NCBI GenBank assembly: GCA_943736015.1
Contig: OX031065.1
Span: 42,298,427-42,362,426 of the forward strand
Length of the DNA stretch: 64,000 nucleotides
Reading direction: 5' to 3'
Source: Tridacna crocea
Taxonomy: Eukaryota > Mollusca > Bivalvia > Cardiida > Cardiidae
Shown in pieces: positions 9,955 to 59,143 of the stretch; the stretch's first letter is position 1, and each line of letters begins with the position of its first letter. The position numbers and the translations under genes are program-made. The notes beneath the pieces are model-generated. The model saw only the letters and a list, made by a program, of their open reading frames with translations. It ran no database searches and was not told the DNA's origin.

Positions 9955-10334
9955 TTAAATAATGACAATTAAGAGAAGATATGTTTCAATTAAATTGTGA
10001 CTATATAGAATTACTTGCTTTCAAACTGTAAACTAAACCTTTTTTTTTTTCAGAAAAGCCTGTGTAATGTACCAGTTTTCAGCTACCACATTTTTTTCAC
10101 ATGTTTAATTTTTGCTACTGATACATCCCTTCTCATTAACGCCAACAATAATAATTATTTGTGGGAAAACGTGTGGATCAAGATCAGTCTTCACATACGT
10201 TTAGTCTAATCTTGATCTCCACTTTCCGTTTCTCTATTAGAGTCTACAATCATGTCAGCACCGTTTGATGCACAAAAAAATCTTTATTGAAAAAATCTAT
10301 AATCGGTCAATCTGAACAAGTCGAGTTTTTTTAA
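9955..10334. other. no gene seen
   Basis: AT-rich sequence. Short stretches such as GATCAAGATCAGTCT resemble a hairpin family seen at 21070-21180 and 31555-31640, but no full element is present. Confidence 0.4.
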
Positions 10335-10451
10335 ACAACAACAACAACAGGAGGAGCAGCAGCAACAACAACAACATAAACAGCAACAACAACATCGACA
10401 ACAACATCAACAACTACAACAACGACAATAAAACATCAATGACATCAACAT

Positions 10452-10484
<33 letters not shown>

Positions 10485-11118
10485 AAACAACAACAACATC
10501 ATCAACAACATCAACAACAACAACTACAACAACGACAACAAAACATCAACGACATCAACATCAACAACAACAACATCAACAACAAAAACAACGACATTAA
10601 CAACAACATCAACAACTTCAGCAATCTCATCATCAACAACAGCAGCAACATCAACGACATTAACAACGTCATCAACAACTTCAGAAACATCATCATCAAC
10701 AACAACATCAACAACATCAACGACATTAACTACGACATTAACAACAACAACATCAACAGCATAAACAACATAAACATCAACAACAACAACAACATCAACA
10801 ACTACAACAACGACAACAAAAACATAAACGACATCAACATAAACAACATCAACGAAATTAACAACGACATTATCAAAAACATTAACAACTTCAGCATCAT
10901 CATCATCAACAACAACAGCAGCAACATCAACAACATCGACAACAGCATCAACAACAACAGCAACAAAAACAACATTAACAACAACATCAACAACAACAAC
11001 AACAGCAACAACAATAACAATAACAACAATGACAATAACTACAACAACAACGACGACGTCAACAGCAACAACAAGAACGACAACCATAACAACAACATCG
11101 ACGACAACAACAACAAAA
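10335..11118. repeat. AAC/ATC trinucleotide array
   Basis: Nearly 800 bp consists of AAC, ATC and related triplets with little else. Because the period is three, frames stay open on the - strand and translate to meaningless poly-Val/Asp or poly-Leu/Met. It is an imperfect trinucleotide microsatellite, not a gene. Confidence 0.9.
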
Positions 11119-11813: not shown

Positions 11814-11944
11814 ATGTTGCAAGCGGTATCCTTTATATATGTTCTGTCGCTGTTGAGCCTAGCACACTGTAGGGCCGTGGTACTGACAGGTGCTGGCGCG
11901 TCATTTCCTAACAAAGTCTACGAGAGATGGATTTCTGGATTTAA
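11814..11944 (+). CDS. receptor exon with start codon: signal peptide and first PstS motif
   Basis: It encodes residues 1-43 plus two bases of codon 44. A hydrophobic leader (FIYVLSLLSLAHC) is followed by LTGAGASFPNKVYERW, the opening PstS phosphate loop. The donor is GTAAGA at 11945. The exon itself probably begins at 11808, after TTTGTTTGTTTCAG, so only six untranslated bases precede the ATG here. Confidence 0.88.
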
Positions 11945-14900
11945 GTAAGAAAGAAAAATATCATAGTTTATTGCCTTTTCCCGATTTGTGTACGAAGATT
12001 TGTGTAGAATAAGATATATCGCGTCTGACATGAATTGGCGTTGAGATATAGAGTTTATCTCATCAGCTTGTGGTCAGTTAATATGGGGAAATATTTGCCG
12101 AAAAAGGGAAAGGTATGCGAAAATAACGAGTGCCTTAAAGCATGAGTTATTTTCGCGGACCTTTCGCCTTTAAGGCAAATATTCCCCCATATTAACTACA
12201 AGCTGATGAAATAAATTAAATATTATATTTCCCGCTGATTATTTTGTCAACGAATGCTACTTTCAAAACTAATGATCTCAAGTTAATTAACCGGATAAAA
12301 AGGAGTTCCAGATTTTTGGCAGGAGGTAAATATTCACTGTGGCAGGGAAATAACTCCTCCCAGCTTAAATTACGACATTTCTTTCCCCAGAACATTTCTA
12401 AAAATAGACACATGAAATATAGTACAAAATTCTATTAAACGAGTCAAGGGAAAGTGATATCAAGCGAGCCCTTGTCTAGCTTAATAACATTTTTTCTTGG
12501 CGAGTTTATTAAAATTTTTAACACATATGTCAACGAATGTCAGATCCTTTATATCACATAACGATATTTCACAATTTATAGATAATAGATAAGAAGATGC
12601 AAAACCATCTATGTAGACTATAAGCCAGCAGGGTGTTTGCTCCCCCAGAGTTTTTTGTGCTCCAAGGTCTCCTGAGCGCATTTCCAAAGTCTGCCACTTG
12701 GCGAATGGGGCTTTTGGGAATGATAGAGATTAAAGTTCATCATGCTCATCTGTAACCCTATCGTTATTAGTTTATCCTCAACTGACCTTTCTTTGGAAAT
12801 TTAATACCTTATGAAAGTCCCAAATGATCTCATGCAAAGTAATAAGCTGATATTTAGATAGTTCTATGCATTTCTAACGAAATAAAAGAACATTTAATGC
12901 AAATCAAAGCACTGACAAAATTATCATTTTATTTTTCAAGCTTCCAAACAATCATAATCTGAGAAACTACATGGATATTTTTCAGATAGATTATATTTAC
13001 TTGATCAGGGAAGCTACCCAACGGCATTTTCAGATTTATTGTGTTTCGGTTTGTCACAATAATGTATGAAATAGAAGCCTTTACACTTTTGAATTTTTTA
13101 CGTCAGTTGCTGAGAATTCAACCATTATCTGGTTCTGGTTCATTTTTTTTATTTGAGATAAAAAAAATAGTTATTGATATTTTTTTTTCATGGACTTTAT
13201 AATTAATTGATATTCATCACAGTAAACACAAATAAAACTATAGAGCAAATCAAAGTACTGAAGTTACTGATACAGTGTGTACTATTTAATTCTTACATCC
13301 ACAAATAGAGGAAAATTTTAGTAGTAAAATATATCTTGGTCTTATTTACTTAGAAGACATTTGCTTATGCTATCTACCGTGCCTTCTCTTGTAATTTTAT
13401 TAATTTAGTTCTCTCAGACAATGATATCCAAGTCTTACGAACGAAGTCCGTAACAAAGAAACAAATGAATGAATGCATGGCAGAAATAAGGATCGGAGCG
13501 GGATTCGAACTCCGAACTCCCGGACGCAAAGCCAATACCCTAACCACTGAGCCAAAGAGATATCTCCCTGACGCAGTAGCCAGGTATTGTATTTAAATCG
13601 GGAGTATATGCCATGCAGGAAGGAGTGGTCTCCCGTAACACACCCCCCTTTTAAAGTCATCATTTATTGATGACTCAAAGCCTTATTAGGCAGGAAGTCC
13701 GATTTTGGACAACAAATGGGACTAATGGCTCAATGGCCAATCCCGGACGAGCCCCCATCTTACGAACGAAGTCCGTAACAAAGAAACAAATGAATAAATG
13801 CATGGCAGAAATAAGGATCGGAGCGGGATTCGAACTCCGAACTCCCGGACGCAAAGCCAATACCCTAACCACTGAGCCAAAGAGATATCTCCCTGACGCA
13901 GTAGCCAGGTATTGTATTTAAATCGGGAGTATATGCCATGCAGGAAGGAGTGGTCTCCCGTAACACAAGAACTAAACTTTGAACTTGCCATGACGAAATA
14001 GTGAGGATATGACCTACAGCCATATTCACATTTTTAGTTCAATACAGGATATATATGCATGAATATAACTCTTTCAGCGCTATGGGCAAAACAACAGAGG
14101 ATCAAAGAATAGGAAAAAGAAACTGCTGTTCATGAATATCATATTTTAAGTCAGCATGTTATATCAAATCCAATGCCCCTCAATTCCAATATTCATACTT
14201 AGCCTTCTTGTACAGTCACGGCATAAATGCGTCATATTATTTCCTTGTTTCTTAATGCCAAGAAGTTAACCTTACAAAATTCAAAACAGGTAAAAAAGGA
14301 AAAACAACAAGCAAAGTTTTCAAAACAAAAACATTAAGCCACAATGATGGCCGGTAAGCATGAGAATGATGATGGTGAAGGCTTCACTAAGCAAATACAG
14401 TCATGCATGAGCTTTACACATTGCCACGCGTTCCTGTACACATGGCCATGCGTTCCTGTACACATTGCCAAGCATTCCTGTACACATCGCGACGCTTTCC
14501 TGTACACATCGCCACGCCTTGCTGTACACATCGCCAACCCTTCCTGTACACATTGATACGACTTTCTGTATACACATTGCCATGTATGCGTTCCTGTACA
14601 CATTGTCATGTGTTCCTTATTCATTGCCATGCGTTCCTGTACACGTTACCGCGAGTTCCTGTACATATGGCCATGCGTTCCTGTTCACATTGCCAAGCAT
14701 TCTTGTACACATCGCGACGCTTTCCTGTACACATTGCCATGCGTTCCTGTACACATTGTCATGTGTTCCTTATTCATTGCCATGCGTTCCTGTACACGTT
14801 ACCACGAGTTCCTGTACATATGGCCATGCGTTCCTGTACACATTGCCAAGCATTCTTGTACACATCGCGACGCTTTCCTGTACACATCATCACACCTTGC

Positions 14901-17900
14901 TGAACACATCGCCAAGCCTTCCTGTACACATTGATACGACTTTTTGTACACATTGCCATGCGTTCCTGTATACATTGCCATGCGTTCCTGTACACATTGC
15001 CATGCGTTCCTGTTTACATTGCCATGCATTCCGGTGTCATGTGTCCCACTCTTGGTCACATTCCAGATCTAGAGAGTAACGCATAAAATTTTCTGGTTGA
15101 CGAAACCATTTAGCGAATCAGAACTTGCGTTATTTTCACATTTACAAAATTGTTGAGAATGACACTCAGAATAGTATTGAGAATGGTTCCACATTTGATT
15201 TGTCGTCTGCAACACCTTTGAATTTAAGCAAGTGTAAAATTTTGTCGTTTAGTTCAACTGATTGTGGCGCCGCATGAGCGGCGACACTATATTCTTATTC
15301 GCTTTTGAAAAGTGCATTTGGAGGTAGCCATATTGTTTAATTCATGGACTTGTTCAGTTTTTTTAACCCATTACCACACGAGAAAAATTTAGACTGGTCC
15401 AAATTGAAAGCATTTGCAGACGACAAAATAAATGTGACTGAAAAATTGAAATTTGTTCTGGCAAGGGTAGAAAACACTGTGGGTAAAGGAGAAAATGCTG
15501 GTTACCAGCATTTTCTCCTTTTCCCACAGGGTTTTCAAAAGGCTTCTTTCTCAGGGGCGTCAAAAGTAGGGATTGTGTGGTAATGGGTTAAAACATACAT
15601 TTAAAAATACTATAGATACTTTCATTACCAGATCGAGCCTGTACCAACTTTGCCTTTTCTGTTTGGACTGAATTTTTGGTTTTGTAACATGTAAAATACA
15701 GTACTTTTACTACCAGATCGACAAAAATAAGATTGTATCACAAATAGCACAGTTTTTAAATATGTGTCTTGTCGAATCATCACGTGGACTTCTACAAAGT
15801 TTGTTAAGCTGATGCCATTGGCGTAAGAAAGTAACCCGCTGAAATGTGTCCAGTTCAGAAACAAGTGATTTGCGGCACCATTGATGTTATGCATCAATTT
15901 TTTCTTGTTACCTTTTTTAGACACCATCGACACAAACACGTGCTGCTGTCTATGACATACGAGAGTATCGGTAGTGGAGGAGGAAAAGCTAGAATAACAG
16001 GGGAAAAAGGACCGGACGTTCATTTTGCAGGGTCAGACTACCCCTTGACGACAGACGAAATCGCCAATAACCCAAATCTTATTCAGTTTCCAACAATGGC
16101 AGGGTAGGTATTCTCCAGGGGTCGCTACATGGATCAGTAGTGAGGTTCGTCGTAAGTTTCGTAACCTGGGGGCCCTAGGCTCGATCTTCAGTCGAAGCGC
16201 CAAGTCTTTTTGTGGGACTCTTTCGGCAAGTCACTTTAAATCTGTTATCCAGGACATCCAGAAATGAATAAGCAAGTTGTTGTCATCGTGATAAAGCTGA
16301 AATAAAACACTGAAGGTGGCGTAAAACAATATTCAATCAGCCAATAACGTTTTTTGTCAATGATTATCATCCACCTCTTCTTCTATTTTTCGTTAACAGA
16401 TTGGCTTTAATATATAGCTAAGAGCCTTCAAAGCACAAGATAAGAGGGAGTGATGGTATTCCATTGTTTCTCTTCCAAACTATATACTGTGTGCATTCAT
16501 TAGAATCGTCTCGGCAAGAAGATTCCAATGAATACCCACAACACAGGGTTTAGTTGAGAATAGTTAAAATTTTCAATTTTGAAATTAAAATCACTTCCTC
16601 TATCTGGAGCTCTAGACCTTGAAGGGCAGTTGTTTAACCCATTACCACACAATCCCTACTTTTGACGCCCCTGAGAAAGAAGCATTTAGAAAACATTGTG
16701 GAAAAGGAGAAAATGCTGATAACCAGCATTTTCTCCTTTTCCCACAATGTTTTCTACCCTTCACAAAACAAATTTCAAATCTTCAGTCACTTTTATTTTG
16801 TTATCTGCAAATGCTTTCAATTTAGACCAGTCTAAAATATTGTCATGTGGGAATGGGTTAACTACAGTTTTTAGTATGTTTGGTGACAGTGATAGCCAAT
16901 ACAATCTCTAAATTCATTTCCAGTTTCAAAACACCTGGTGGGGCCTTTCGTTTACCTACGGCAGTTTTTATTGGGAAACTTGCCTTTATTTATATGAATG
17001 CGACTTACTGATAGCTTGATTGTTTGGTGTCTTTTTTCAACACATTTCAAATATATCGGAGAGGCCAATGCACATATCAATGATTTCACAATATTTTGCT
17101 CGAGGCACTTGCTGTTTTCCCTTAAATCCGTCGTCAAAACAAAAATCAAACTTGTCAATCCTGTGCCAATGACTCAGAAAGAAATCTCAGAAAGAAATTT
17201 GCCGAGCTAGGGATTTAAACCAGCGAACCATTGAATTCAAATCCAATAAGTTGCCGACCGCACCACCTGGGCCCATGTTCAGCAACCATTCTTGAGAATA
17301 TTCTTAATCTTGACCTCCAAGGTTGTCCAAATTTGTGAGTAACACAACCCCTGATCGGCCAAAATCACTTCTTTGATCCGGAGCTCTGGATTTCACTTCA
17401 CGTAAAAAAATGTCTTTCACATTGATTATTTTATCTGGGCAATCGTTTTATTTTAACAAAATTCCTAGGATGGAAATGACGAAAATACTGGTAACCACCA
17501 TTTTCCCCCTTTTCCTCAGCGTTTCCTACCATCTGTTTGAAGACAAATAGATCTATCAGTTTTACCTACATGTATATTGACCACTTCAGATGCTGTCAGT
17601 ATGGACATATAGATCTATAATTTCGTTGATAGAAGTTTGAATTCGGAGAGCGCTATGATTCTGTAAACCTGGGTCTGTATTCACCAACCATTCTTAAGAA
17701 CGTTCTTAATCTTATTCTCCAGAATTTCTGAAACTGGAAAGTAACAAGACTTCTGACTAGCTAAACCATTTGGTTTAGCCAATCAAAAGTCTTGTTACTT
17801 TCCAACATAGAAAAATCTGAAGAATAAGACCAAGAACATTCTTAAGAATGGTTGGTGAATAGGGACCCTGGTGACGCATCTGTCAACGTAGTTTGTACTT

Positions 17901-20900
17901 TTTTATGCTTTCAGGTCCGTGGTTCTCGCCTATAACATACCTAATCTACAAAATCTGACACTCAGTTTAGAGACAATAGTCGGTATATACAATGGGACAT
18001 TTAGAAGATGGGACGACCCGAAAATCAAAGAGCTCAACCCCAATCAACAACTGCCTTCGACCGAAATAACTGTGTTGGTCCGCTCAGATAAATCTGGAAC
18101 CACATTTGCGTTTACGAACTGTTTGTCAAGCTATAGTTCGGAGTGGAGGAATACATACGGTACATTTGCCCAAGGACTCGATTCAAATAGGAAACCTATT
18201 TTTTGGAATAGCACGTTCATCAAATTCTATGGCAATACGAATAACGGTATGACAGGCATGGTGGTGTCCCTGTTCAATTCTATCGGCTATATGTCTGTTG
18301 CAGATGCTGTCAAATCAGGCATTCCATATGCTTATATTCAAAAGTCACCTGGAAACGTGGTTAAAGCTAACTCAGAGAGTGTTCAGAGTGCTATAATCAC
18401 CGCTAATGGTTCTTTAGACATTGCAAATACCCCGGGTCCAAATTCATACCCCTTTTCATCATTTACTTTCTTTATTACGAGACATAGCAATCCTATTGAC
18501 TGCGACGCAATGGTTGAATTTATCCGATTTGTCGAATGGTCATTCTCAGAAAAAGTAGCGAGGGATGATACAGAAAACCTGTTTATGGTGCCTCTGGACT
18601 TTGATACCGTCGACAATATCAAGAATGATATTCTTAAGACAATAACCTGTAAAGGGAGTAGGGTATGGGATATATACGTTCAACAACGTCAGCGCGAGAC
18701 CCAAGAGCCTGTTGACAACAGCTGGATGGTTCCGACTTATGGCGGCATAGGTGTTCTGTTGGCAGTGATTGTTACACTTGCCATTTTGTTTGGTCACCAG
18801 CAGTATAAAGTACATAGGGAAATTCTAAACGACACCTGGAAAATAAACGCCTCAAAGATCATGGTAGACAAAACTTCAGTTGAAGAACACAAAAAGATCG
18901 CAAACACAAAATCTACCACACCGGAGCTTGTAAAATCAGTTAGTGACTGCGGAGAATCTACTTTAGCAGACCAAGCTTGGCTTGAACATGACAATGTACA
19001 AGGTATATATCAGGGCACCGTCGTGACACTATCGGAAACACGAATACATAAAATGTCGCTGAAGGATAAGAGGATAGCTTTGTTTATGAGGGATCAAATA
19101 AAGCATACCAACGTCATGCCATTTCTCGGACTGACACTTCATCGATTTTACTATCTCGGACTTTACACTGGAATGATGCGTGGAACTATCTTAGAAGTTC
19201 TAAGTAATCCCAAATATCAGCTTCACAAGAGTTGCATTGTTGGGTTCTGTAAAGATCTTGCCGAGGGTATGAAATTTCTACACAGAAAAGGTATCGTCCA
19301 CGGGAACCTCAGGGGATCTAACTGTTTGGTTGATATGGCTTGGATTCTTAAAGTGACCGGATGGTGTGAAAATAAGATAATTGAGCGTACCTTCATCGAT
19401 ACTATCCAAATTGATACCACGGAGCGTCTCGCCGATGAAAACAATGCTAGAAAACTTCTTTGGACGGCTCCAGAGCTTATTAAATTCAACAGATCACCAA
19501 CACAGGCCGGCGATGTGTACAGTTTCGGTATGGTTGTTCAAGAAATGCTTACTGGCGATGAACCATTCAGTGAACTAGACAACTTGCCTAGCGATATAAT
19601 CACAGCTGTTATAACGTGCTCAGTGCGACCCAAATTTTGTTCTAACACACCGGCGTACATTCGGCGTCTCCTTGAGGCGACATGGGAAATGGACCCGTCT
19701 GGGCGGCCATCGTTCGCAAATATTTGCCAAGGCTTAAAAACTGCGTACCCAAAAGATACCTCGATTCTGGATTCCATAATTGACTCTTTTGAGGGATATG
19801 TTGAAATTCTTGAACAAAGGGTTAAAGGTTAGTATTTATTTATGAAATGTGGAGTTTTTATTTGTTTTAATCTTTTTGCATTGCCTTTAACGCCGTGTTC
19901 AACAGTATTTCATTTTTATTAATTAACTATTGGATATATAGAAGTTATACAAGGAAACCAGTCCACGCGATACCAGTCACATTTCTGATTTCGTATAGTA
20001 CACAGGTCGTGACCCCGTCTTAATACGACTTGACCTCCGATCAATACAGTTGACCTCGTATCAATATTGATGACCCGCGACCAATACAGAAATCCTTGAA
20101 CGTGATTGGTCAAAAGTTCAGTGGCGTGAGCGCCTGCGCTTACTTTTAGCCAATCACGTTCCAGGAGGCGGAAAAAGTAAACGTAACCCAAAAATTGATA
20201 TTTGTTTCCAGCAGGGTAGAAAATATTGTGGGAAAAAGGAGAAAATGCTGGTTACCAGCATTTTCTCCTTTTCCCACAATGTTTTAAGAAGGCCTCTTTT
20301 TCAGGGTCGTAAAAACCAGAGTTATTTGGTAAAGCGTTAATTAATAAAACTGTCATTAATCAAGTGATTTCGTATTGGCCCAGTTACAGGTCCGAGGTCA
20401 ACCGTATTGACCCTCGGCCTTTGGCCTCGGGCCAATACGGCTGATCTCGGACCTGTAACTGGGCCAATACGAAATCACTTGATTAATAACATCAAGGGTA
20501 ACAACCTACGTCACAGGAAGTGATATCGGACCTGCGCATTTTCGTAACTTATGTCCGCCATATTGAAAAGTAAGTACGATATGAAGATAGAATGCGGCTA
20601 GCTTGGGTGGATACAAACGGACTACAAAGATTCTCATGTATTTATCAAAGACATTAGATGAATACATTTAATACTCTGATGTTTTAGACAGGAAGCAGAT
20701 GTCTATATGCACAAACACTTTGACCAAATATCAAAAAGTGATTGGGTTTTAATAGTTGGTCGAAGTCTTTTCCATTAGTATAAGTAGTTAACAAAAGCTT
20801 TGACAAAAAACAAAGTCCCTAGGCATTGTACTCTATGGAGGTCTAAATACTTTTTCAGATCATTTAAAGGAACGATTACAAAAAATAAAAACAGTCTTAC

Positions 20901-23900
20901 CAAACACGCACACTGACGTTATAATAAGGGTCCGATATCACTACCTGTGACGTCACTCTGACGTACGTTGTGAGGGGTGAACATTATAATATCGCGGTGG
21001 CCGGTGTGTATATCTATGCTTTCCTGGGGATTGTTTTACCTGTACTTTGCACGGCATTCTTCCACATGTTAACACTTGGGCCGTTAAGCAGCACTGGCCT
21101 TTAACGAACAGTGTAGATCAAGATCAGACTGCACAGGACGTACAGTCTGATCTAAGATCTACACTGTTCGATACAGAGGTATTTTCCCTAGAAATATCTT
21201 TGAAATAGCGTCGTCTGGGCTTTTACTATCGGCTTCAAAAAATCATTTCAGTCATTTGGCAGCATAAGGGTTATCCCATTACCACACAATCCCTACTTTT
21301 GACGCCCCTGAGAAGGAAGCCTTTAGAAAACACCGTGGGAAAAGGAGAAAATGCTGGTAACCAGCATTTTCTCCTTTTCCCACAGTGTTTTCTGCCCGTC
21401 CCAGATTTTCAATTTTTCAGTCACCTTTATTTTGTCGTCTGCAAATGATTTCAATTTGGACCAGTCAAAAATTTTCTCGTGTGGTAAAGAGTTAAAGGTG
21501 GGTATTTAGAATTTTTACATCTCGCCAAATTAAGAAATATATATATCACTGAAATTCATATGAAAAAATAATACAAATCATCAATAATTAAGATTCATAA
21601 AATTACAAAAAAATTTTTTTTGATGGTATTCCCTTAAAAGGCTACGTAGCATCTTAAGATTTTTTTAGATTTCGCGCCAAAAATCAATAAAGCATTGTGG
21701 GAATGTCAAGTGACTGGCACGTGACTCATAACGCTTAAATTCCCTATCATAACAAACATGTAATAATTATTTTCCATAATATCTTCTTCGGACGCTATGT
21801 TTGAAGCTTCTTTTGTGTATTCCTGTAAGTAAATGAGCGAATTGTTCGTCTAAAATTAGAATGTGTCTCCCCTTAGTGTCAACCTGGGCCGTAGTAAATC
21901 TCTAATTTCTCGTGTTGTCGGACGGATTTCGACTACTGGGGTTTTACACTGCTCAAAAGAATTCATGAAAGGGTCACATTAACGTTGAAATTCAAATCTT
22001 TCTCTATGCTGAACAATCGGTTTTTGTGCTCTGAAAACCATCAGCTCACATTCTTACTAGACAAAATGGCTAAAATGTTTTCTTTTTGTTTCATTTTAAT
22101 TGCTGATAAGCCATGTTACAATGAAGATTGAAAAAATTGTTTTCCTTGTCCTTTTGTTTTTAAACAGCTCATTTTTTTCCCCAATATTTCGTTCATAACG
22201 TTACTCTCGTAAAATCTAGTGAAAGAAGAGGATGAGATGAAACAATGACATTTCCGATTCCCTAAAAAGCCCGGGTGACACGTTGTCTGCGCATGTCATA
22301 TTCTTCGAAGATTCGACTGTCTTATATGACGCATCACTACTAGTCCCGAAAGCGGGCTGACTGTAATATTACGCTCCATTAAGTATAGCAGTGTTGAAAA
22401 TAGCTTTTACGTTTCAATACGTTTGAGGAGAAATGAGACCTGCTTTAGCAACAGATTTCTCTAAGCTAGTGATCATAGTTGAGTGAAGAGCACGAGGTAG
22501 CGTTTTATTGGGTAAACTTTTTTTGTTTTAAATTCAAAGTAACGGTTGTCGCGTAGGAAAGTGGTTCGGTTCTGTACCCAGGATGCCCATATCAGATAGA
22601 TGAGTATAAATATAGAATGCCATCTAGCGGGAGATAATGCCGGGTGGCATATCAATGGCATGACCGGAAGAGCCCGTGCTTCTTTTGTGCAAACCAAATT
22701 GTTTTGTCCGTTCCGAGATTTTACACTGAACATTAAGACTGAATGAACTTATGAGCAGAAAATTATTTGGCTTGTCCTGTATTGAAAAAAAATTATCTTG
22801 CGATCGAAGTTGAGGACATGTGGTCCTTTATTTTTTTGAGCAGTGTATTTCTATAATACTTATCTTAACGAAACTGACATAGCAATATCAATCTGTGAAC
22901 GCATAACGGTTCTTTATTCATTGCCTTCAGCCACGCGTATTTTGCGTCACCAATCAAATCGCCAAGGTTTCAATGACGTCAGATCCTAGTGACGTCAGAT
23001 TTAGTTAAATTGGGACATTGACGAGGGAAACTTTATATCGTCAGCGTACTCAATTTTTAAAAAAGAAAGAAAGAAAGAAAAAAAAAAACTTTTGAACGGT
23101 AAAACTTTGCTGTATAAGAAATTCGTTGTACGGTCAGGGGTTTGGTAACTTGTTCACAGCTGTGGTGAATCATGTCGCCCCGAGCTGAAGCATGCGGCAA
23201 CATTATTTAGTACAGCCGTGAACAAGTTTCTAAATCCCCTGCCACCTTACTGCCACTAACTAGATCTAATAGAATCATACGCTGTGAAATGGCTTACAAC
23301 ACGCGAAAAGGGACATTCAGACATCTGCGTAAAATGTCGTCTCGGATCAGCCTGCGCGGTCCGCGCAGGCTAATCCGAGACGGCACTTTCCGTTTATATG
23401 ATTTTTCCTGTTCTGTACAAGTCTACTGAAGGACACAATCTAATGCAGACGTGAAGTGCTGTCTCGGATTAGCCTGCGCGGACTGCGCAGGCTGATCCGA
23501 GACGACACTTTACGCAAATGTCCGGATGCCCCTTTTCGCGTGTTGCAAGCCAAATGAGGGTCTAATGCATCTCGATCAATGTCAGTCTGTGCATTCAGCA
23601 CTTAACCCTTTAACATACATTCAAGACTTCTAACGAACCTAAAAGAAAAGCTTTTAAAACATTGTGGAGAAAAAATGCTGGAACTAACTTTTTATGACAT
23701 TATTAGTTGTACGGTCAGGTGGCAGGTGACTTGGAACCTTGTTCAAGGGTGTGGTTAATCATGTTGCCCCGAGCCGAAGGTTCCAAGTCCCCTGCCACCT
23801 GACCGTACAACGAATTTATTATACTGAAAAGTTTTACCCTTTTCAAAGCGCGTTAAGCGAAATTTTCCTGTTTTATAATTTCACGAATCGAGTATGCTGA

Positions 23901-26900
23901 CGAAACAGACATTCCCTTCTGTGTGCCCCAATTCAAAGAAATCTGACGTCACTGGAAACACGTCACTAAAACGGGCAGTTTGGTGCATAAATGTGCAGTC
24001 GGGTGATCGATCGACGCCGCACGTGTAGTGATGTTTACGGGGTACTCAAAGGAAAACTGGCTTTACGTGGTTCTTGCCAGGGAACATGATATATGTTCCC
24101 GGCATGTTAACCAATCAGATCACGAGAAATTTCTTTGCAGTAGATCTATAATAAAACCTCCTTTATTTTTTTAGTGAAATATAAACCTACTCATTATGAA
24201 TTTTTCTTATCAGATAATATCTCATGTATACATGTTCGATATCACAATTGTGTGACGTCATTTTGAGGGCATTTTGTCCATATGTCATAGAAGTTAATGG
24301 GTTCTGAAATGGAATATTACTGCATCTATGGTTTTGCTCCTTATGATCAATAAGTTGTATAATACAGTTATGTGATAAAAAGAATCTGACATTCGGTACC
24401 GTTTGAGATACAGTTTTATTTAACTCGTCAAGAAAAAAAAAAGTTATTAAGCTCTCCAAAGGCTCGCATTTTGGACACATTTGTTTTGTCATTTACAAAT
24501 GCCTCGGATTTTGATGGGTTTAAAATTGTGTCTAGTGGAACGAAGTTCAAAGGGACTGCAAAGGCCATTGATTTCAACAAATCTAAAATCTTACTGTATG
24601 GGAAAGAGTTTTTTTTTTTAACTTTAATTGCCACGTCTATCGGTATATGGGAAAGAGTTGATAAGGTAAAAGGGAAATCTAATTTCAATTGTAGAGGCTG
24701 AAGAACAAAAGAAAAAGCTTAAACTGAAGATTAAAGAACAATTGCTAAAGACAGCACCACCAACGATTTTGGACAAGATGTTAGACGACAGCCAACTGTC
24801 GTCAGAGAGAATAGAAGGCATCAGTGCATTGGTGCTTCTCATATCTAATATTGACGAAGTCGTCGACAGGGTCACCATAGACGGGATATTTAACACCCTA
24901 AAACACTTCTATTCTGGACTAGATTCTATCATTGATGCAGAGGATATGTACATAGTAGAAAGGCATGCGGAGAAGACTGTGTATGCCAAAGGCTTGCCAA
25001 CATACAACAAACAACACGCTGAAAACACGTGTCAAGCTGCCTTAAAGATAAAATCGTATTGTCAAGACTTTAATCGACAGCATTTAGATACTCTGAAGGC
25101 GGAGATAAGATTGAAAATCGGGATATCCAGCAGTAGTGCTTTGTCTGGTGTCTTGTTGTCCAATATTCCAAGATACACGGCCATTGGAAAATGCTTCGTG
25201 GAGGCGACACAGATGGCAATGTCGGCAGAGGACAACACGATTCGCATTTCACAGACCACATTTGACACAGTAAAAAACACACATAATTTATCAGTCGTCG
25301 AATTTCTGGACGACAAGGTATGTACGTCTTTCATTTTCTGTCTAAAAAACATAACATGTGACTTTGCAAACCGTTTCATACAAACAAATTGTTTAACATC
25401 AGTAGAGATTAAAAAAACCTTGCCCAGTATCAATTGCTTAAACGTGCTCTAACGTATCTTCATTCGCTGAAAAACGTGCTCATTGCCGTGGCGTGCCATA
25501 GTTGAACTTCAGAATAGCCTTTAAATTTCGTAGAGGCACCTTAAGCGTCGATTTAACTTTTGAACAGTTTTTAAAGAAAATTACGGAATGCAGATATGTT
25601 TGAACGCATTTGAGACTACTATAAAGTGCAGTTGGACACAATATATAACGCATGTTAGTGTTCCTTTTACGCACCTTGCGCTGCACAACCAGGTTATTCA
25701 AAAGTTGCAATCAGTCTCTGCAGAGCATGTTACTTGGAAAGAGCAGAGCGCCAGCTTATGCTGTCGTTCAAATGCGTAGTGCATGGCCTTTCTTTAACGC
25801 AGTTTTATGTGCTTTTACACTGCAAAGAGGTTCTCATGATTTGATTGGATAATCGATCCAAACTGGCAAGCACAAGGGAAAAGTAGTTTCCCTGTCGGGA
25901 GACCCGTAGACTTGACACACTTCAACACAAAAAGCAAGATAGTGGCGTCGATCGATACGACATACGACATACTTCGGATGATAGAAGCCGTCAAATCCCT
26001 TAACCGTATCTGATAGCTTAGTATGCACCTACACAGTACATTTCATCACCGGAAATACTCCGATTAACCGTTTGCAAAAATGTAAGGCTCCCCTTAAAAA
26101 AGAAAACTTGAGTCTCAATTTTCTATCCAGATCTTTCTAACTATTTTTTAGGGTGACAAACAGTTCGTATGTTCATTTTTAACGTGGTTATCAATTGCGA
26201 TTGGAGTTTTCACCGATAAATATATGTGGATAACTTCATAGAGGTTGTTTATATCTATGTATAAGATCACGTGATTGGCAGTTCCAAATGGAAACGACCT
26301 TTATCCAGACGAGGTTAGATGTATGTACAGAATCCTGAATGGACTACTGTATTTTGAAAATAAATAAATACGGTTGAATAAATCCCCGTTTTTGTTATTC
26401 TAGAGCAAAGCCGCTAGCTTAACACGAGCCCTTTTTTCATGTGAGCAAATTGTGATGTGTCAAAGACTATGCATAACTCCGAAAATAAATAAAGTAAGTC
26501 GTTTGGATCAAGTAATGATCGTTTGATTAAGAAATAATCTTCTTTCTATCGTGGTATATCGTTCAATAAACCACAGTTGTGAGTTATGAGGCACAATAAA
26601 TAATCCACGAGGGCGATAGCCCGAGTGGGTTATTCATTGTGCTGCATAACTCACAACGTGGTTTATTGAACGATATACCACGATAGAAAGAAGATTATTT
26701 CGATTCTAACATGGCCAATTCTTAGTGAAACGAAAACAAGTTCAAACTTAAAGTAAAAACGCGGATGAAGATTATGTTCCATTGAATAACTCACTCATTG
26801 AATGACGTCACTCTAAATGGATTGTCGCAGATTTTACCACGTTTTCCTTGCACTGTGTTCATAGAGCCAAAGTCGCGTGTCTTGTTAGAATTTTACTTTT

Positions 26901-28087
26901 ACATAGTCCATCAAATAACACGGAATTTTACATTATTTACTGCACTCTTGTTTTCCTGCACATTACAGCGGACTCAAAGAAGTTATTCCTTGTATAATTT
27001 ACTCTAGTTTTACTGTTTTTCACTGTCTTTTACTTCAAAATATGGTGAACATAATGTTTTTTTTTTACTAGAGCTACGTTATTAAATGTAATACATGTTA
27101 TTGGTGTGCAACACGCGAAAAGGGGCATTCGGACATTTGCGTAAAGTGTCGTCTCGGATCAGCCTGCCCAGTCCGCTCAGGCTAATCCAAGATGACACTT
27201 TCCTTTTTTGTGTAATTTTCTGTTTTGGGCAAGTCTACTGTAGCACAAAATCTAATGTAGTCATGAAGTGCCGTCTCAGATTAGCCTGCGCGGACTGTGC
27301 AGGCTGATCCGAGACGACACTTTACGCAAATGTTCGAATGTCCCTTTTCGCGTGTTGCAAGCCAATTATAACAAATACATAAAACACGGAGTTTCGTGCA
27401 AGTGTAATACTGACTCAAATCTTTGCCCCCCCCCCCCCCCCCCCATTCCCGATTTTCAGCTTTCAAAGATGGATTCCACAATTTGAGCCACATTTAATAG
27501 GTCATCTGCGACTGCTTGGATTGAGATCATCTTAAAGTTTGTTGTGTGAAAACAGGTTAAGGCTACTCTCTGATACATCTGGCGGGCGTAAACTAGAACC
27601 CGTTGTACCTCTCGCAACCTACCGATAGACAACAGGCAACAACCGATTTATCGACGGCAGCTACTGATTTTCTTGTGTGCCAACTCCACGGCGCGTTATA
27701 GAATGCCTTAATTTGTCGTTCAAAATAACGGAACAGTATTCTATCTTTGGCTAAAATATTCGCGATAGATATTTCTTTTTTCATCAGGATCAATGTATCA
27801 AACTCGCCAACGAATGAATTATCGATGAGGCCTTTCTTTGTGTAATAATTTAAAGAGCAAAATATGACGTTATCTAATTAAATCTTGCGCCGGTCAAATT
27901 TCTGCCTTGTAGAATCGGTGGTTACCTGTTGTGGATACAAATATCGACAACAGGCTATCATCTAAGGACGATCGAAGCTGAGTTTACATTATCTTTATTA
28001 TTTCAGGAGCACTATCAACTTCAGGAGCCCAAGGATGAAATTCTCGAATTAGTTCTTCAGGACATCGAAAACAACCTGCTTGTGTAA
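11814..28087 (+). CDS. PstS-like phosphate-binding receptor with pseudokinase and pseudo-guanylyl-cyclase domains (5 coding exons)
   Basis: The coding exons are 11814-11944, 15921-16103, 17915-19827, 24695-25317 and 28007-28087. Every intron is GT/AG and all phases agree, giving 976 residues. The order is: signal peptide (1-19); PstS-type phosphate-binding domain (about 24-365); transmembrane helix (about 380-398); kinase homology domain (about 440-725); signalling helix (about 727-757); class III cyclase domain (about 776-950); short tail. Residues matching the E. coli PstS phosphate ligands are S30, F31, S62, D83, R161, S165, G166 and T167. The HRD motif reads HGN (567-569) and DFG is replaced by TGWC (586-589). 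In the cyclase the two metal Asp positions are N794 and E835, and the catalytic Asn/Arg are V911 and Q915. The layout is that of natriuretic-type receptor cyclases with a different ligand domain. I infer a phosphate or oxyanion receptor signalling without its own catalysis, perhaps in a heterodimer. The start is the ATG before the signal peptide; a cag acceptor 7 bp upstream implies a non-coding first exon that I cannot place. Confidence 0.9.
12042..12217. repeat. family F palindromic element (first receptor intron)
   Basis: Outer arms CATCAGCTTGTGG and ACTACAAGCTGATG are inverted. Inside, GGGGAAATATTTGCC pairs with GGCAAATATTCCCCC, and the centre repeats CGAAAATAACGAGTGCC inverted. Relatives lie at 29880-30048 and 40075-40185. 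Confidence 0.75.
12230..13425. other. intron sequence, no other gene seen
   Basis: AT-rich intron of the receptor gene. The open frames at 12216-12687 have no domain, no splice-bounded structure and no coding bias. 12240-12270 resembles the inverted flank of the family F copy near 29850. Confidence 0.45.
13432..13645 (-). mobile_element. tRNA-derived SINE, copy 1 of a close pair
   Basis: On the - strand, TGGCTCAGTGGTTAGGGTAT is a good RNA polymerase III box A and GTTCGAATCCC is a good box B, about 36 bp apart as in a tRNA. The body continues to ACGGACTTCGTTCGTAAGA. The next copy at 13760-13967 is almost identical. Confidence 0.8.
13760..13967 (-). mobile_element. tRNA-derived SINE, copy 2 of a close pair
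   Basis: Same orientation and nearly the same sequence as 13432-13645, with very few differences (GAATAAATG for GAATGAATG). Box A and box B are intact. The pair arose from a very recent segmental duplication or from two young insertions. A diverged + strand relative lies at 50690-50920. Confidence 0.8.
14410..15045. repeat. 22-bp minisatellite with higher-order period
   Basis: About 29 units of a 22-bp motif such as CATTGCCATGCGTTCCTGTA. One 21-bp unit, CATTGTCATGTGTTCC followed by TTATT, recurs 153 bp apart (14601 and 14754), so seven-unit blocks were themselves duplicated. Because 22 is not a multiple of 3 and the unit has few stops, long frames are open on both strands; these are not genes. 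Confidence 0.92.
15265..15912 (+). mobile_element. dispersed element with GGCGCCGC end, host to a family A insertion
   Basis: The left end GTGGCGCCGCATGAGCGGCG and right end GCGGCACCATTGATG...CATCAATTTTTTCTTGTTACC parallel the element at 42127-43445 (GTCGCCGCGCAGAAGCGCGC; GCGGCGACTTTGATG, then GCATCAACTTTTTCTTGT). A family A copy (15363-15590) is nested inside. The right end finishes a few bases before the acceptor of the receptor exon at 15921. Confidence 0.5.
15363..15590. repeat. family A palindromic element
   Basis: Full copy with TTAACCCATTACC at the left and GGTAATGGGTTA at the right. The centre is around CTGGTTACCAG. The two open frames through it are mirror images of each other because the element is self-complementary. 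Confidence 0.88.
15921..16103 (+). CDS. receptor exon: second and third PstS phosphate loops
   Basis: It completes codon 44, encodes residues 45-104 and leaves two bases of codon 105. It contains YESIGSGGGKARI (PstS S38 region) and HFAGSDYPLT (PstS D56 region), then QFPTMAG. The acceptor is CCTTTTTTAG and the donor GTAGGT. Both flanking introns are phase 2, so the exon is symmetric. Confidence 0.88.
16130..16330 (+). mobile_element. probable tRNA-derived SINE, degenerate
   Basis: Box A- and box B-like segments (AGTGAGGTTCGTCG; GGCTCGATCTTCA) are followed by a body ending in GGTGGCGTAAAACAATATTC, a common metazoan SINE tail. It lies in the third intron of the coding region. Confidence 0.5.
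16634..16860. repeat. family A palindromic element
   Basis: Full copy with ends TTAACCCATTACC and GGGAATGGGTTA. The centre is around TGATAACCAGCA, one mismatch from perfect. Confidence 0.88.
17204..17285 (-). mobile_element. tRNA-like SINE head
   Basis: On the - strand, GTGGTGCGGTCGGC resembles box A and GGTTTAAATCCCTAGCTC resembles box B at about tRNA spacing. It is too degenerate to be a functional tRNA. Confidence 0.45.
17268..17345. repeat. family G fragment
   Basis: CAACCATTCTTGAGAATATTC and the following bases match the left arm of the full family G copy at 17660-17870. A family A fragment with ACTGGTAACCACC sits at about 17455-17535. Confidence 0.5.
17660..17870. repeat. family G palindromic element
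   Basis: The left arm TTCACCAACCATTCTTAAGAA is inverted at the right as TTCTTAAGAATGGTTGGTGAA, and the centre CTAAACCATTTGGTTTAGC is self-complementary. Total length is about 200 bp. It ends only about 45 bp before the acceptor of the large receptor exon. Confidence 0.85.
17915..19827 (+). CDS. receptor exon: rest of PstS domain, transmembrane helix and kinase homology domain
   Basis: This 1913-bp exon encodes residues 105-742. It opens with SVVLAYNIPNL and carries the PstS hallmarks NGTFRRWDDPKI, ELNP and RSDKSGTTFAFT (161-172). SWMVPTYGG leads into the helix GVLLAVIVTLAILFG. The kinase homology domain has IYQGTVV, HGNLRGSNCLVD, LKVTGWCE, LWTAPEL and DVYSFGMVVQEML, and ends near GRPSFANICQGL. 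The exon closes with GYVEILEQRVK, the start of the signalling helix. Donor GTTAGT at 19828, phase 1. Keeping the sensor, membrane helix and pseudokinase in one uninterrupted exon is unusual for this receptor class. Confidence 0.92.
20190..20340. repeat. family A palindromic element, left-truncated
   Basis: The centre is around CTGGTTACCAG with complete inner arms. The right end is GGTAAAGCGTTAA; the left outer arm is mostly lost. Confidence 0.75.
20365..20490. repeat. ~125-bp palindrome
   Basis: Arms beginning AATCAAGTGATTTCGTATTG and their inverted copy (CAATACGAAATCACTTGATT) flank CCTCGGCCTTTGGCCTCGGG. It abuts the left end of the family I element and is not part of it. Confidence 0.85.
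20495..20985. mobile_element. family I MITE, copy 1
   Basis: The ~490-bp element has imperfect terminal inverted repeats around CACAGGAAGTGATATCGGAC (left) and GTCCGATATCACTACCTGTG (right). An inverted, nearly identical copy is at 61636-62120. There is no open frame. Confidence 0.8.
21070..21180. repeat. hairpin element with GATCAAGATCAGACTGCAC arm
   Basis: The arms GAACAGTGTAGATCAAGATC and its inverted partner TAGATCTACACTGTTC fold around CTGCACAGGACGTACAG. A second member is at 31555-31640. Confidence 0.65.
21271..21496. repeat. family A palindromic element
   Basis: Full copy. Left end TTATCCCATTACC, right end GGTAAAGAGTTAAA, and a perfect centre around CTGGTAACCAG. Confidence 0.88.
21495..21946 (+). 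repeat. family H dispersed repeat, copy 2
   Basis: Same orientation as 4358-4812 and collinear over about 450 bp. It is bordered on the left by a family A element and on the right by the mariner-like element. Confidence 0.75.
21947..22845. mobile_element. non-autonomous Tc1/mariner-like element
   Basis: The 899-bp element starts CACTGCTCAAAA and ends with its inverted copy TTTTTTGAGCAGTG, and it is flanked on both sides by TA, the target site duplicated by Tc1/mariner transposases. No transposase frame is present. A degenerate inverted relative of its interior is at 30690-31090. Confidence 0.75.
22950..24000. repeat. ~1-kb long inverted repeat with a nested element
   Basis: GACGTCAGATTT, GACGAGGGAAAC and GTCAGCGTACTC near 22980-23055 reappear inverted and diverged at about 23895-23955. 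Inside these, TTGTACGGTCAGG (23130) pairs with CCTGACCGTACAA (23800). Two further hairpins (23120-23250 and 23700-23820) share CATGTYGCCCCGAGC. A family D element (23291-23551) and half of a family A element (23599-23685) are nested in the middle. Confidence 0.65.
23291..23551. repeat. family D element, copy 1
   Basis: The ends AACACGCGAAAAGGG and CCCCTTTTCGCGTGTT are inverted. Inside are two separate hairpins, each with arms of the CGTCTCGGATYAGCC type around a GCGCGG core. The whole element is therefore a palindrome of palindromes. Other copies are at 27106-27363 and 41221-41476. Confidence 0.85.
24001..24440. other. intron sequence, no gene seen
   Basis: Contains a short palindrome GGGAACATGATATATGTTCCC near 24080 and a dispersed motif ATCAGATCACGAGAAATTTC shared with about 2315. 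The open frames here have no coding character. Confidence 0.45.
24695..25317 (+). CDS. receptor exon: signalling helix and degenerate cyclase domain
   Basis: It encodes residues 743-950. EAEEQKKKLKLKIKEQLLK continues the coiled signalling helix, and TAPPTILDKML matches the conserved LP-x-SV-A-x-L entry of guanylyl cyclases. The domain follows in order: LVLLISNIDEVV (metal site 1, Asp changed to Asn794), YIVERHAEKT (purine Glu831 kept, metal site 2 Glu835), LSGVLL, IPRYTAIGKCFVEATQM (purine Cys changed to Thr904, catalytic Asn/Arg changed to Val911/Gln915) and ISQTTFDTV. Acceptor TTTCAATTGTAG, donor AAG/GTATGT, phase 0. The fold is recognisable but the chemistry should be lost. Confidence 0.88.
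25318..26520. other. intron sequence, no other gene seen
   Basis: Several unrelated short frames overlap on both strands and none has a domain or splice-bounded structure. No large repeat is apparent. Confidence 0.4.
26526..26915. repeat. family C palindromic element, copy 1
   Basis: Arms AATAATCTTCTTTCTATCGT and ACGATAGAAAGAAGATTATT flank a second palindrome (GAGTTATGAGGCACAATAAA inverted) with the centre GAGGGCGATAGCCCGAGTG. A unique tail with GAATGACGTCACTC follows. A second copy is at 44313-44930. Confidence 0.8.
27106..27363. repeat. family D element, copy 2
   Basis: Same double-hairpin organisation as 23291-23551, in the same orientation, with the ends AACACGCGAAAAGGGG and CTTTTCGCGTGTTG. 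The first hairpin core reads GCCCAGTCCGCTCAGG, so it carries more mismatches. Confidence 0.85.
27426..27444. repeat. poly-C run
   Basis: Uninterrupted run of about 19 C in the last receptor intron, a likely site of length polymorphism or sequencing uncertainty. Confidence 0.85.
28007..28087 (+). CDS. receptor last coding exon
   Basis: It encodes residues 951-976 and the stop: EHYQLQEPKDEILELVLQDI followed by ENNLLV. The acceptor is CTTTATTATTTCAG and the intron is phase 0, as required by the previous exon. The tail is acidic and probably helical; no known targeting motif is visible. A possible AATAAA lies at about 29027, too far downstream to assign with confidence. Confidence 0.8.
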   Translation, partial: EHYQLQEPKDEILELVLQDIENNLLV

Positions 28088-58125: not shown

Positions 58126-59143
58126 CAAGAGGGCCAAGATGGCCCTGGATCACTCACCTGAATTTTTAAGAGGACCATAGCCAATTTTTTTTCAAAATCT
58201 AATCAGCCATTTCAGAAAAGATTGATTTTAAAGAATTTTTTCATGTCTATATAGGGTAAATAGCCCACAGCCATCAGAGCCATATTTCTTGATGGATCAA
58301 AATTTCTCGTGCAATTTTTGAAAAAGGGTCAGCTAAGAAACATTTCTGTGAAATTATATCAAAATGTGACAAGCCCTTTCAGAGAAGAAGAATTTTCAAG
58401 AATTTCCTCATGACCATATATATTGCAAGTAACCCCCATTCACCAGAACCATGTTCATTGACGGATCGAAATCTCGCAATACACATTTGAAAAGGGTCAT
58501 GCAAGGACCCTTTCTGTGAAATTATTTCAAAATCTGACCAGCGGTTTCCGAGAAGAAGAGTTTTTAAGAATTTCTTCATTTCCGTATAGTGCAAGTAGCC
58601 CCCATTTACCAGAGCCATGTTTATTGACGGATCAAAATTTCGCGAACAGTTTTTGACAAGGGTCATCAAAGGAACATCTCTGTGAAATTATTTCAAAATC
58701 TGATCAGCAGTTTCAGAAAAGAAGAATTTTTAAGAATTCCTTCATTTCCCTACAGCGCAAGAAGCCCCCCATTACCAGCGCCACGTTTCTAAACGGATCA
58801 AAATTTCACGAACAAATTTTAAAAAGGGTCACCTAAGGAATATCTGTATGAAATTATTTCAAAATCTGACCTGGAGTTCCAGAGCAAAAGATTTTTAAAG
58901 AATTTCCTAGAAAATTTCATTTGGCTGCCATTGCAACCAGAGTTTTTGACGGAATCAAATTGTGTGAACAAATTTTTATAGAGGACCTCCCAAGGAACAT
59001 TCCAGTCAAGTTTGGTCCAAATTGGCCCAACAGTTTAGGAGGAGTTGATCTTTAAAGAATTGTTGACGACGCACGACGGACGACAGACACCGGGTGATCC
59101 TAAAAGCTCCCCTTGAGCACGCTGTGCTCAGGTGAGCTAAAAA
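58126..59143 (+). mobile_element. ACAAGAGGGCC bivalve-type dispersed element
   Basis: It opens AACAAGAGGGCCAAGATGGC and closes GAGCACGCTGTGCTCAGGTG then AGCTAAAA. The interior has about five diverged units of roughly 150 bp sharing GTGAAATTATTTCAAAATCTG, AGAAGAAGAATTTTTAAGAA and CCCCCATTACCAGAGCCA. There is no coding domain. Confidence 0.75.

Follow-up and report, generated by a model that had tools for sequence, protein, structure and literature searches.

The window analysed here, a 64,000-nucleotide stretch of the genome of the bivalve Tridacna crocea (assembly GCA_943736015.1, contig OX031065.1, positions 42,298,427 to 42,362,426), carries on its forward strand, at positions 11814..28087, a gene that joins a PstS-like phosphate-binding domain of bacterial type to the body of a receptor guanylyl cyclase. 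Exon 1 (11814..11944, with a GT donor in phase 2) encodes the signal peptide (residues 1-20) and the start of the PstS domain, with the codons of Ser30 and Phe31 at 11901-11906, and exon 2 (15921..16103), whose AG and GT boundaries are in phase, encodes the PstS N-lobe with Ser62 (15973-15975) and Asp83 (16036-16038). Exon 3 (17915..19827), an open frame of 646 amino acids, holds the remaining PstS, the transmembrane helix, the kinase homology domain and the start of the linker helix, while the rest of that helix and a degenerate guanylate cyclase domain (24802-25281, residues 779-938) lie in exon 4 (24695..25317). Exon 5 (28007..28087), with the C-terminal 26 residues and the stop, is tentative and was placed by splice sites and frame only. 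The five exons agree in phase and give a product of 976 residues, as the first-pass annotation had proposed; all four introns are GT-AG, and there is a single terminal stop. An alternative donor of exon 2 at 16107 was rejected, since it breaks the frame and brings in 66 stops. The G+C content is 0.42-0.47 in the exons and 0.38-0.39 in the introns.

Exons 1-4 are backed by homology, and for the 26 residues of exon 5 no homology to the tails of orthologues was found in the multiple alignment. The database proteins P0002-P0006 show no gap against the Tridacna protein where exon 1 meets exon 2 or where exon 2 meets exon 3. In P0007 the match begins at the start of exon 3 and the stretch ahead of it is unrelated, as if an intron at the same place may have been read through. 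The protein P0001, from a 2.6-Mb contig, covers only the equivalent of exon 3, and its similarity ends just past the exon-3 donor; over about 640 residues it is 85% identical to the gene on the BLAST alignment and 84% on the multiple alignment. The genome amounts to 1.05 Gb in 31 contigs, and the window lies within one (C10) that extends beyond 42 Mb. The gene model is confirmed as real. Along the protein Pfam finds PBP_like_2, protein kinase and Guanylate_cyc in this order, all three above their cut-offs, and together with the PDB matches and hydropathy this bears out the proposed sequence of signal peptide, PstS, transmembrane helix, kinase homology and cyclase.

The PBP_like_2 match spans residues 22-314 (2.8e-25, above the curated cut-off), a PstS fold was also predicted, and in a PDB sequence search residues 22-336 match solved PstS proteins up to 8e-44, with only about 30-34% identity to the best of them. 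The domain starts with RAVVLTGAGASFP, and the GAGASFP motif of exon 1 is kept in all six rows that cover this region. Eight phosphate-contact residues are present (S30, F31, S62, D83, R161, S165, G166 and T167); the first contact position has Ser instead of Thr, a swap found in 20 of 51 rows. The phosphate loop R161-S-D-K-S-G-T167 (18081..18101, forward strand) we take to correspond to R135-T141 of E. coli PstS, as we also assume the E. coli numbering of the other contact residues. On an alignment of nine rows R161, D163, S165 and G166 are kept in all nine, and position 167 is T in seven and S in two. Where the whole pocket is covered (six rows) the contact residues are kept, including the Asp of specificity, apart from position 167 of Solemya, where Thr is replaced by Ser. 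For DING proteins a comparable list of eight contact residues is given, and one pocket Asp is tied to phosphate specificity, in the accessible part of PMC7922408. From these residues we infer that the PstS domain would bind phosphate. The Cys pair 301/350 also occurs in Chloroflexota-type PstS and in part of the other rows; Cys stands at these positions in 20 and 21 of the 51 rows, respectively.

The signal peptide was called by hydropathy only, from a hydrophobic window at residues 5-23, and the single transmembrane helix (residues about 380-402, 18738..18806, forward strand) is the highest hydropathy window of the protein. As these are the only two stretches above 1.4, the product is consistent with a type I membrane protein. 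A profile built from nine family members finds atrial natriuretic peptide receptor 1, at about 1e-104, with a match that runs from the transmembrane region up to and including the cyclase. The kinase homology domain (residues about 470-715, 19008..19745, forward strand; Pfam PK_Tyr_Ser-Thr at 495-710, 5.1e-30) lacks the VAIK Lys and the Asp of DFG and has HGN in place of HRD, as read by eye on the alignment, and therefore fits a pseudokinase; receptor cyclases are usually without kinase activity. Guanylate_cyc is found at residues 779-938 with 9.1e-14. The first-pass annotation had read this part as a working cyclase body and its degeneracy had gone unnoticed, yet at columns aligned to receptor cyclases of known structure and to P0007 the metal Asp-1 is replaced by Leu, Asp-2 by Glu, the guanine Cys by Thr, the transition-state Asn by Val and the Arg by Gln, so that of six catalytic residues, with the roles we presume for them, the guanine Glu alone is left. 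In seven of the eight sequences with a cyclase domain (the gene and six relatives) the metal Asp-1, Cys, Asn and Arg are absent at the aligned columns; among these seven, Asp-2 is kept only in Batillaria and the guanine Glu only in the Tridacna gene and Batillaria. The eighth, P0007 (on a 5.3-kb contig), keeps all six residues, scores 199.8 bits against 51.9 in the Tridacna gene, and is probably an active cyclase. The named molluscan members with a cyclase domain thus look like pseudocyclases, and P0007 shows that, as far as residues tell, this state is not universal in the family of PstS receptor cyclases.

When 5.8 billion proteins were searched, 7992 candidates were scored and 21 of them matched at E up to 1e-3. 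Eight of them, P0001-P0008, have PBP_like_2 and kinase, and seven (P0002-P0008) also have Guanylate_cyc in the same order, a recurrence that a join by chance does not fit. This three-domain order, which the first-pass annotation expected in related species, occurs in Mercenaria mercenaria, Ruditapes philippinarum and Solemya velum, which we take to be bivalves, and in Batillaria attramentaria and Gigantopelta aegis, presumably gastropods. The named tardigrade and fly matches of this search are without PBP_like_2. A second search, with an alignment, gave 578 matches among 7990 candidates; the best 120 of the 578 were listed, P0007 not among them, and added Nucella lapillus (498 residues, PBP_like_2, and a membrane helix by eye). 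Among the matches listed there was no PBP_like_2 protein from a named oyster, scallop, cephalopod or animal outside the molluscs, which in a word-based search of top candidates does not show absence. On viral contigs six stretches matched a pattern and none encodes a relative. In the Tridacna genome an exon-by-exon search gave a single PBP_like_2 match at E up to 0.001. Identity to the gene for PstS, kinase and cyclase, in this order, is 54%, 38% and 27% in Mercenaria, 48%, 38% and 22% in Ruditapes, 46%, 33% and 20% in Batillaria, 47%, 30% and 18% in Solemya, 40%, 31% and 22% in Gigantopelta, 39%, 31% and 20% in P0007 and 40%, 28% and 11% in P0008. Since identity falls from PstS over kinase to cyclase in all seven relatives, the PstS ligand domain is the most constrained part; usual receptor cyclases show the opposite pattern.

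The order of signal peptide, ligand domain, one helix, kinase homology, linker helix and cyclase is that of receptor guanylyl cyclases such as natriuretic peptide receptor 1, GC-C and the GCYs of C. elegans, from which the Tridacna protein differs by having PstS and not an ANF-type ligand domain, and by the loss of the catalytic residues and the VAIK Lys. No ANF family was among its Pfam matches to E 0.1; an ANF-type domain is usual in receptor cyclases, not universal. With PstS proteins, nearest to the Chloroflexota type, the domain shares the model fold, the contact residues and the Cys pair, but it is split by two introns and is a predicted membrane-tethered receptor ectodomain, whereas PstS serves an ATP-binding cassette (ABC) importer. 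The nearest precedent is NIT-GC, which likewise has an animal receptor-cyclase body with a bacterial-type sensor, proposed as a lateral transfer; there, according to the accessible part of PMC7400543, NIT lies between two membrane helices, with a catalytic cyclase domain after it, whereas the Tridacna protein has PstS, one helix, kinase homology and a pseudocyclase. No NIT family was among the Pfam matches to E 0.1. DING proteins, reported in the part of PMC7922408 available to us from animals whose genomes lack the gene, also have a PstS-like phosphate-binding flytrap, phosphate binding being only predicted in Tridacna. The proposal that the locus offers a genomic setting for DING-type sequence is not supported, and identity with a DING protein was rejected: the DINGGG start is absent, DING chains match at about 1e-6 against 8e-44 for PstS, and the fold match is also far weaker. 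The first-pass interpretation stands in part, for the fused PstS receptor; a working cyclase and the DING link are not supported. Its statement that no published receptor of this type was known to it agrees with our search of the open-access literature, in which no description of a PstS receptor was found (most subscription papers and bioRxiv preprints lie outside its scope); none is described in the accessible portions of PMC9602780 and PMC12716839 either. The protein looks like an undescribed animal phosphate receptor. As its relatives are already public under generic names ('speract receptor-like', 'guanylate cyclase 32E-like', 'receptor-type guanylate cyclase gcy-12-like', 'guanylate cyclase' and hypothetical), the novelty lies in recognising it and not in the sequence.

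We consider it reasonably likely, judging from sequence, that the gene encodes an extracellular phosphate receptor with a pseudokinase and a pseudocyclase inside, signalling without cyclic GMP (cGMP) synthesis of its own. In such a single-pass surface receptor the PstS Venus flytrap would bind inorganic phosphate (or arsenate) outside, and the intracellular part would consist of the pseudokinase, the linker helix and a cyclase domain no longer able to make cGMP. Closing of the flytrap on phosphate would shift the arrangement of a dimer, and this shift might be read by a partner, either another receptor cyclase that the protein restrains or proteins bound to its kinase-like part. The output is expected to be other than own cGMP because most active-site residues of the cyclase part are gone; both surface exposure and the manner of output are suppositions. 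Bacterial PstS has micromolar affinity, and if this holds here, external water would be a likelier source of the signal than phosphate-rich blood or body fluid. There are C. elegans receptor cyclases reported to sense inorganic ions directly (accessible part of PMC5225109). Several observations weigh against this account. Motifs for N-glycosylation are not enriched over composition (4 seen, 4.6 expected in the protein) and so do not support surface exposure; their higher count in eukaryotic than in bacterial rows (3.5 and 1.4 per 300 residues) was not used, as it is only 1.13 times the composition expectation. Bacterial PstS made up most of the AlphaFold input alignment, and this biases the prediction towards a PstS-like model; the full-length model, with a mean predicted local distance difference test (pLDDT) score of 60, was too poor for use. 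In the close relative P0001, which covers exon 3 only and not the cyclase, PstS (85%) is no better conserved than the kinase (89%). Solemya and P0008 have an Arg one column off the aligned catalytic Arg.

The alternative we take most seriously after the phosphate receptor, although we find it rather unlikely, is that the pocket binds another ligand, be it a phosphorylated metabolite, another oxyanion or a protein partner. Eukaryotic flytrap domains often switch ligand, and identity to the best solved PstS is low; this is opposed by the contact residues of the six whole-pocket rows, where the Asp linked to specificity in the accessible part of PMC7922408 is also kept. Obligate heterodimers with shared catalytic sites exist, for example ODR-1 with DAF-11 in C. 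elegans (PMC5225109, in the part available), and the Tridacna protein could in principle complete the active site of another receptor cyclase. Partners may be at hand, given 107 cyclase-domain exon matches in the genome, adenylyl cyclases included, of which the two strongest (L002 and L003) were rejected as multi-pass adenylyl cyclases by eye. A second PstS receptor as partner was rejected as well, there being the one PBP_like_2 match, and for exon 3 the best of seven genome matches beyond the gene itself reaching 31 bits. Key residues of both half-sites are gone (the metal Asp-1 on one side, Asn and Arg on the other), so the subunit, with the roles presumed for these residues, could complete neither, and its effect on a partner would be limited to regulation or blocking, which makes this heterodimer improbable. 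A working receptor guanylyl cyclase that makes cGMP upon phosphate binding is less probable again: the domain order, the match to atrial natriuretic peptide receptor 1 and the intact P0007, from which an active ancestor may be supposed, speak for it, and the five replaced residues of six, with the four losses that recur in six other members, speak against it. That the locus is a decaying pseudogene, an assembly artefact or, as the first-pass annotation had already denied, bacterial contamination is hardly credible; the degenerate cyclase would suit decay, but a 976-codon open frame with four introns on so long a contig, an architecture that recurs in five named molluscs with its PstS part in a sixth (Nucella), and the closeness of P0001 would not.

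To place the PstS domain we used a maximum-likelihood tree of 60 rows: 14 eukaryotic, 25 bacterial P rows (redundancy-filtered), 12 of 29 Chloroflexota loci and 9 of 47 other loci, with P0128, P0125, P0101, P0112, P0094, P0010a and P0012a omitted. The eukaryotic PstS domains form one clade (bootstrap 100, Shimodaira-Hasegawa-like approximate likelihood-ratio test (SH-aLRT) 97), the receptor-cyclase domains a clade nested inside it (100/99), and eukaryotes with Chloroflexota-type rows are separated from the remaining rows at 100/100. The branch of P0015 is long (1.9), the composition of P0007 and of Solemya is unusual, and there is weak support for grouping one P0009 unit with the other (93/47) and P0007 with P0008 (83/39). 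Genomes had been scanned for the named loci with a profile of Chloroflexota type, hence the sampling favours Chloroflexota. In an earlier, phylum-blind tree of 46 rows, made of protein-search matches only, the eukaryotes adjoin P0023, P0028 and P0032, which later grouped with Chloroflexota. Because the tree is unrooted, the direction of transfer is one that we infer. The eukaryotic clade also takes in both units of P0009 and the first units of P0013 and P0015. In P0009 two PBP_like_2 stretches are followed by a membrane helix and the beginning of a receptor-cyclase-like kinase domain with a VAVK Lys, where the predicted frame ends; the best PDB match of that kinase part is atrial natriuretic peptide receptor 1 (7e-5). 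P0013 and P0015 have two PBP_like_2 stretches each and a class C seven-transmembrane domain. All three were taken as eukaryotic because of their architectures. P0013 and P0015 are candidate phosphate-sensing G protein-coupled receptors outside animals.

Apart from the coding exons, the window is marked by repeats. A short palindromic element with the core GAGAAAATGCTGGT is present on the forward strand in 10 exact copies (15489, 20239, 21345, 40749, 43932, 45694, 46307, 51130, 52113 and 54100); it resembles a miniature inverted-repeat transposable element, and three of the copies lie in introns of the receptor gene. An element of about 245 bases that starts with CAACACGCGAAAAG and has inverted inner repeats stands at about 23297-23540 (intron 3) and 27109-27360 (intron 4), with ends set by eye. 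Intron 1 holds a direct repeat of about 170 bases (about 13430-13600 and 13770-13935), similar to a short interspersed element and, on its reverse strand, reminiscent of a tRNA B box; no tRNA was found by ARAGORN there or elsewhere in the window. It also holds a 22-base minisatellite of 27.9 copies (14415-15032), the cause of long spurious open frames. Just upstream of the gene an imperfect AAC array of about 260 units (10334-11116) gives Asn-rich and Val-rich open frames of no likely meaning, and a 166-base tandem repeat of 4.3 copies lies at 58190-58906. An Rfam scan of the window at the gathering threshold gave no match, and Pfam gave none above cut-off for 10 other open frames.

How extracellular phosphate is sensed is poorly understood even in mammals, where a transporter, a fibroblast growth factor (FGF) receptor and the calcium-sensing receptor are candidates (accessible part of PMC8199323). 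We suggest tentatively, as a possibility somewhat short of an even chance, that eukaryotes acquired one PstS domain in a single event from a Chloroflexota-like donor and made it the ligand part of a range of phosphate receptors with different transducers, namely animal receptor cyclases (one relative with an intact active site, and the molluscan pseudocyclases) and class C seven-transmembrane receptors in other eukaryotes; animals would thus own a dedicated receptor for extracellular phosphate built on a bacterial pocket. This would be a case of an animal receptor made from a nutrient-binding protein of bacteria, in a receptor cyclase family most known members of which appear to have abandoned catalysis and yet kept the ligand site. 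A receptor with a real PstS ligand domain, its pocket intact in bivalves and gastropods, would make the question of phosphate sensing directly testable.
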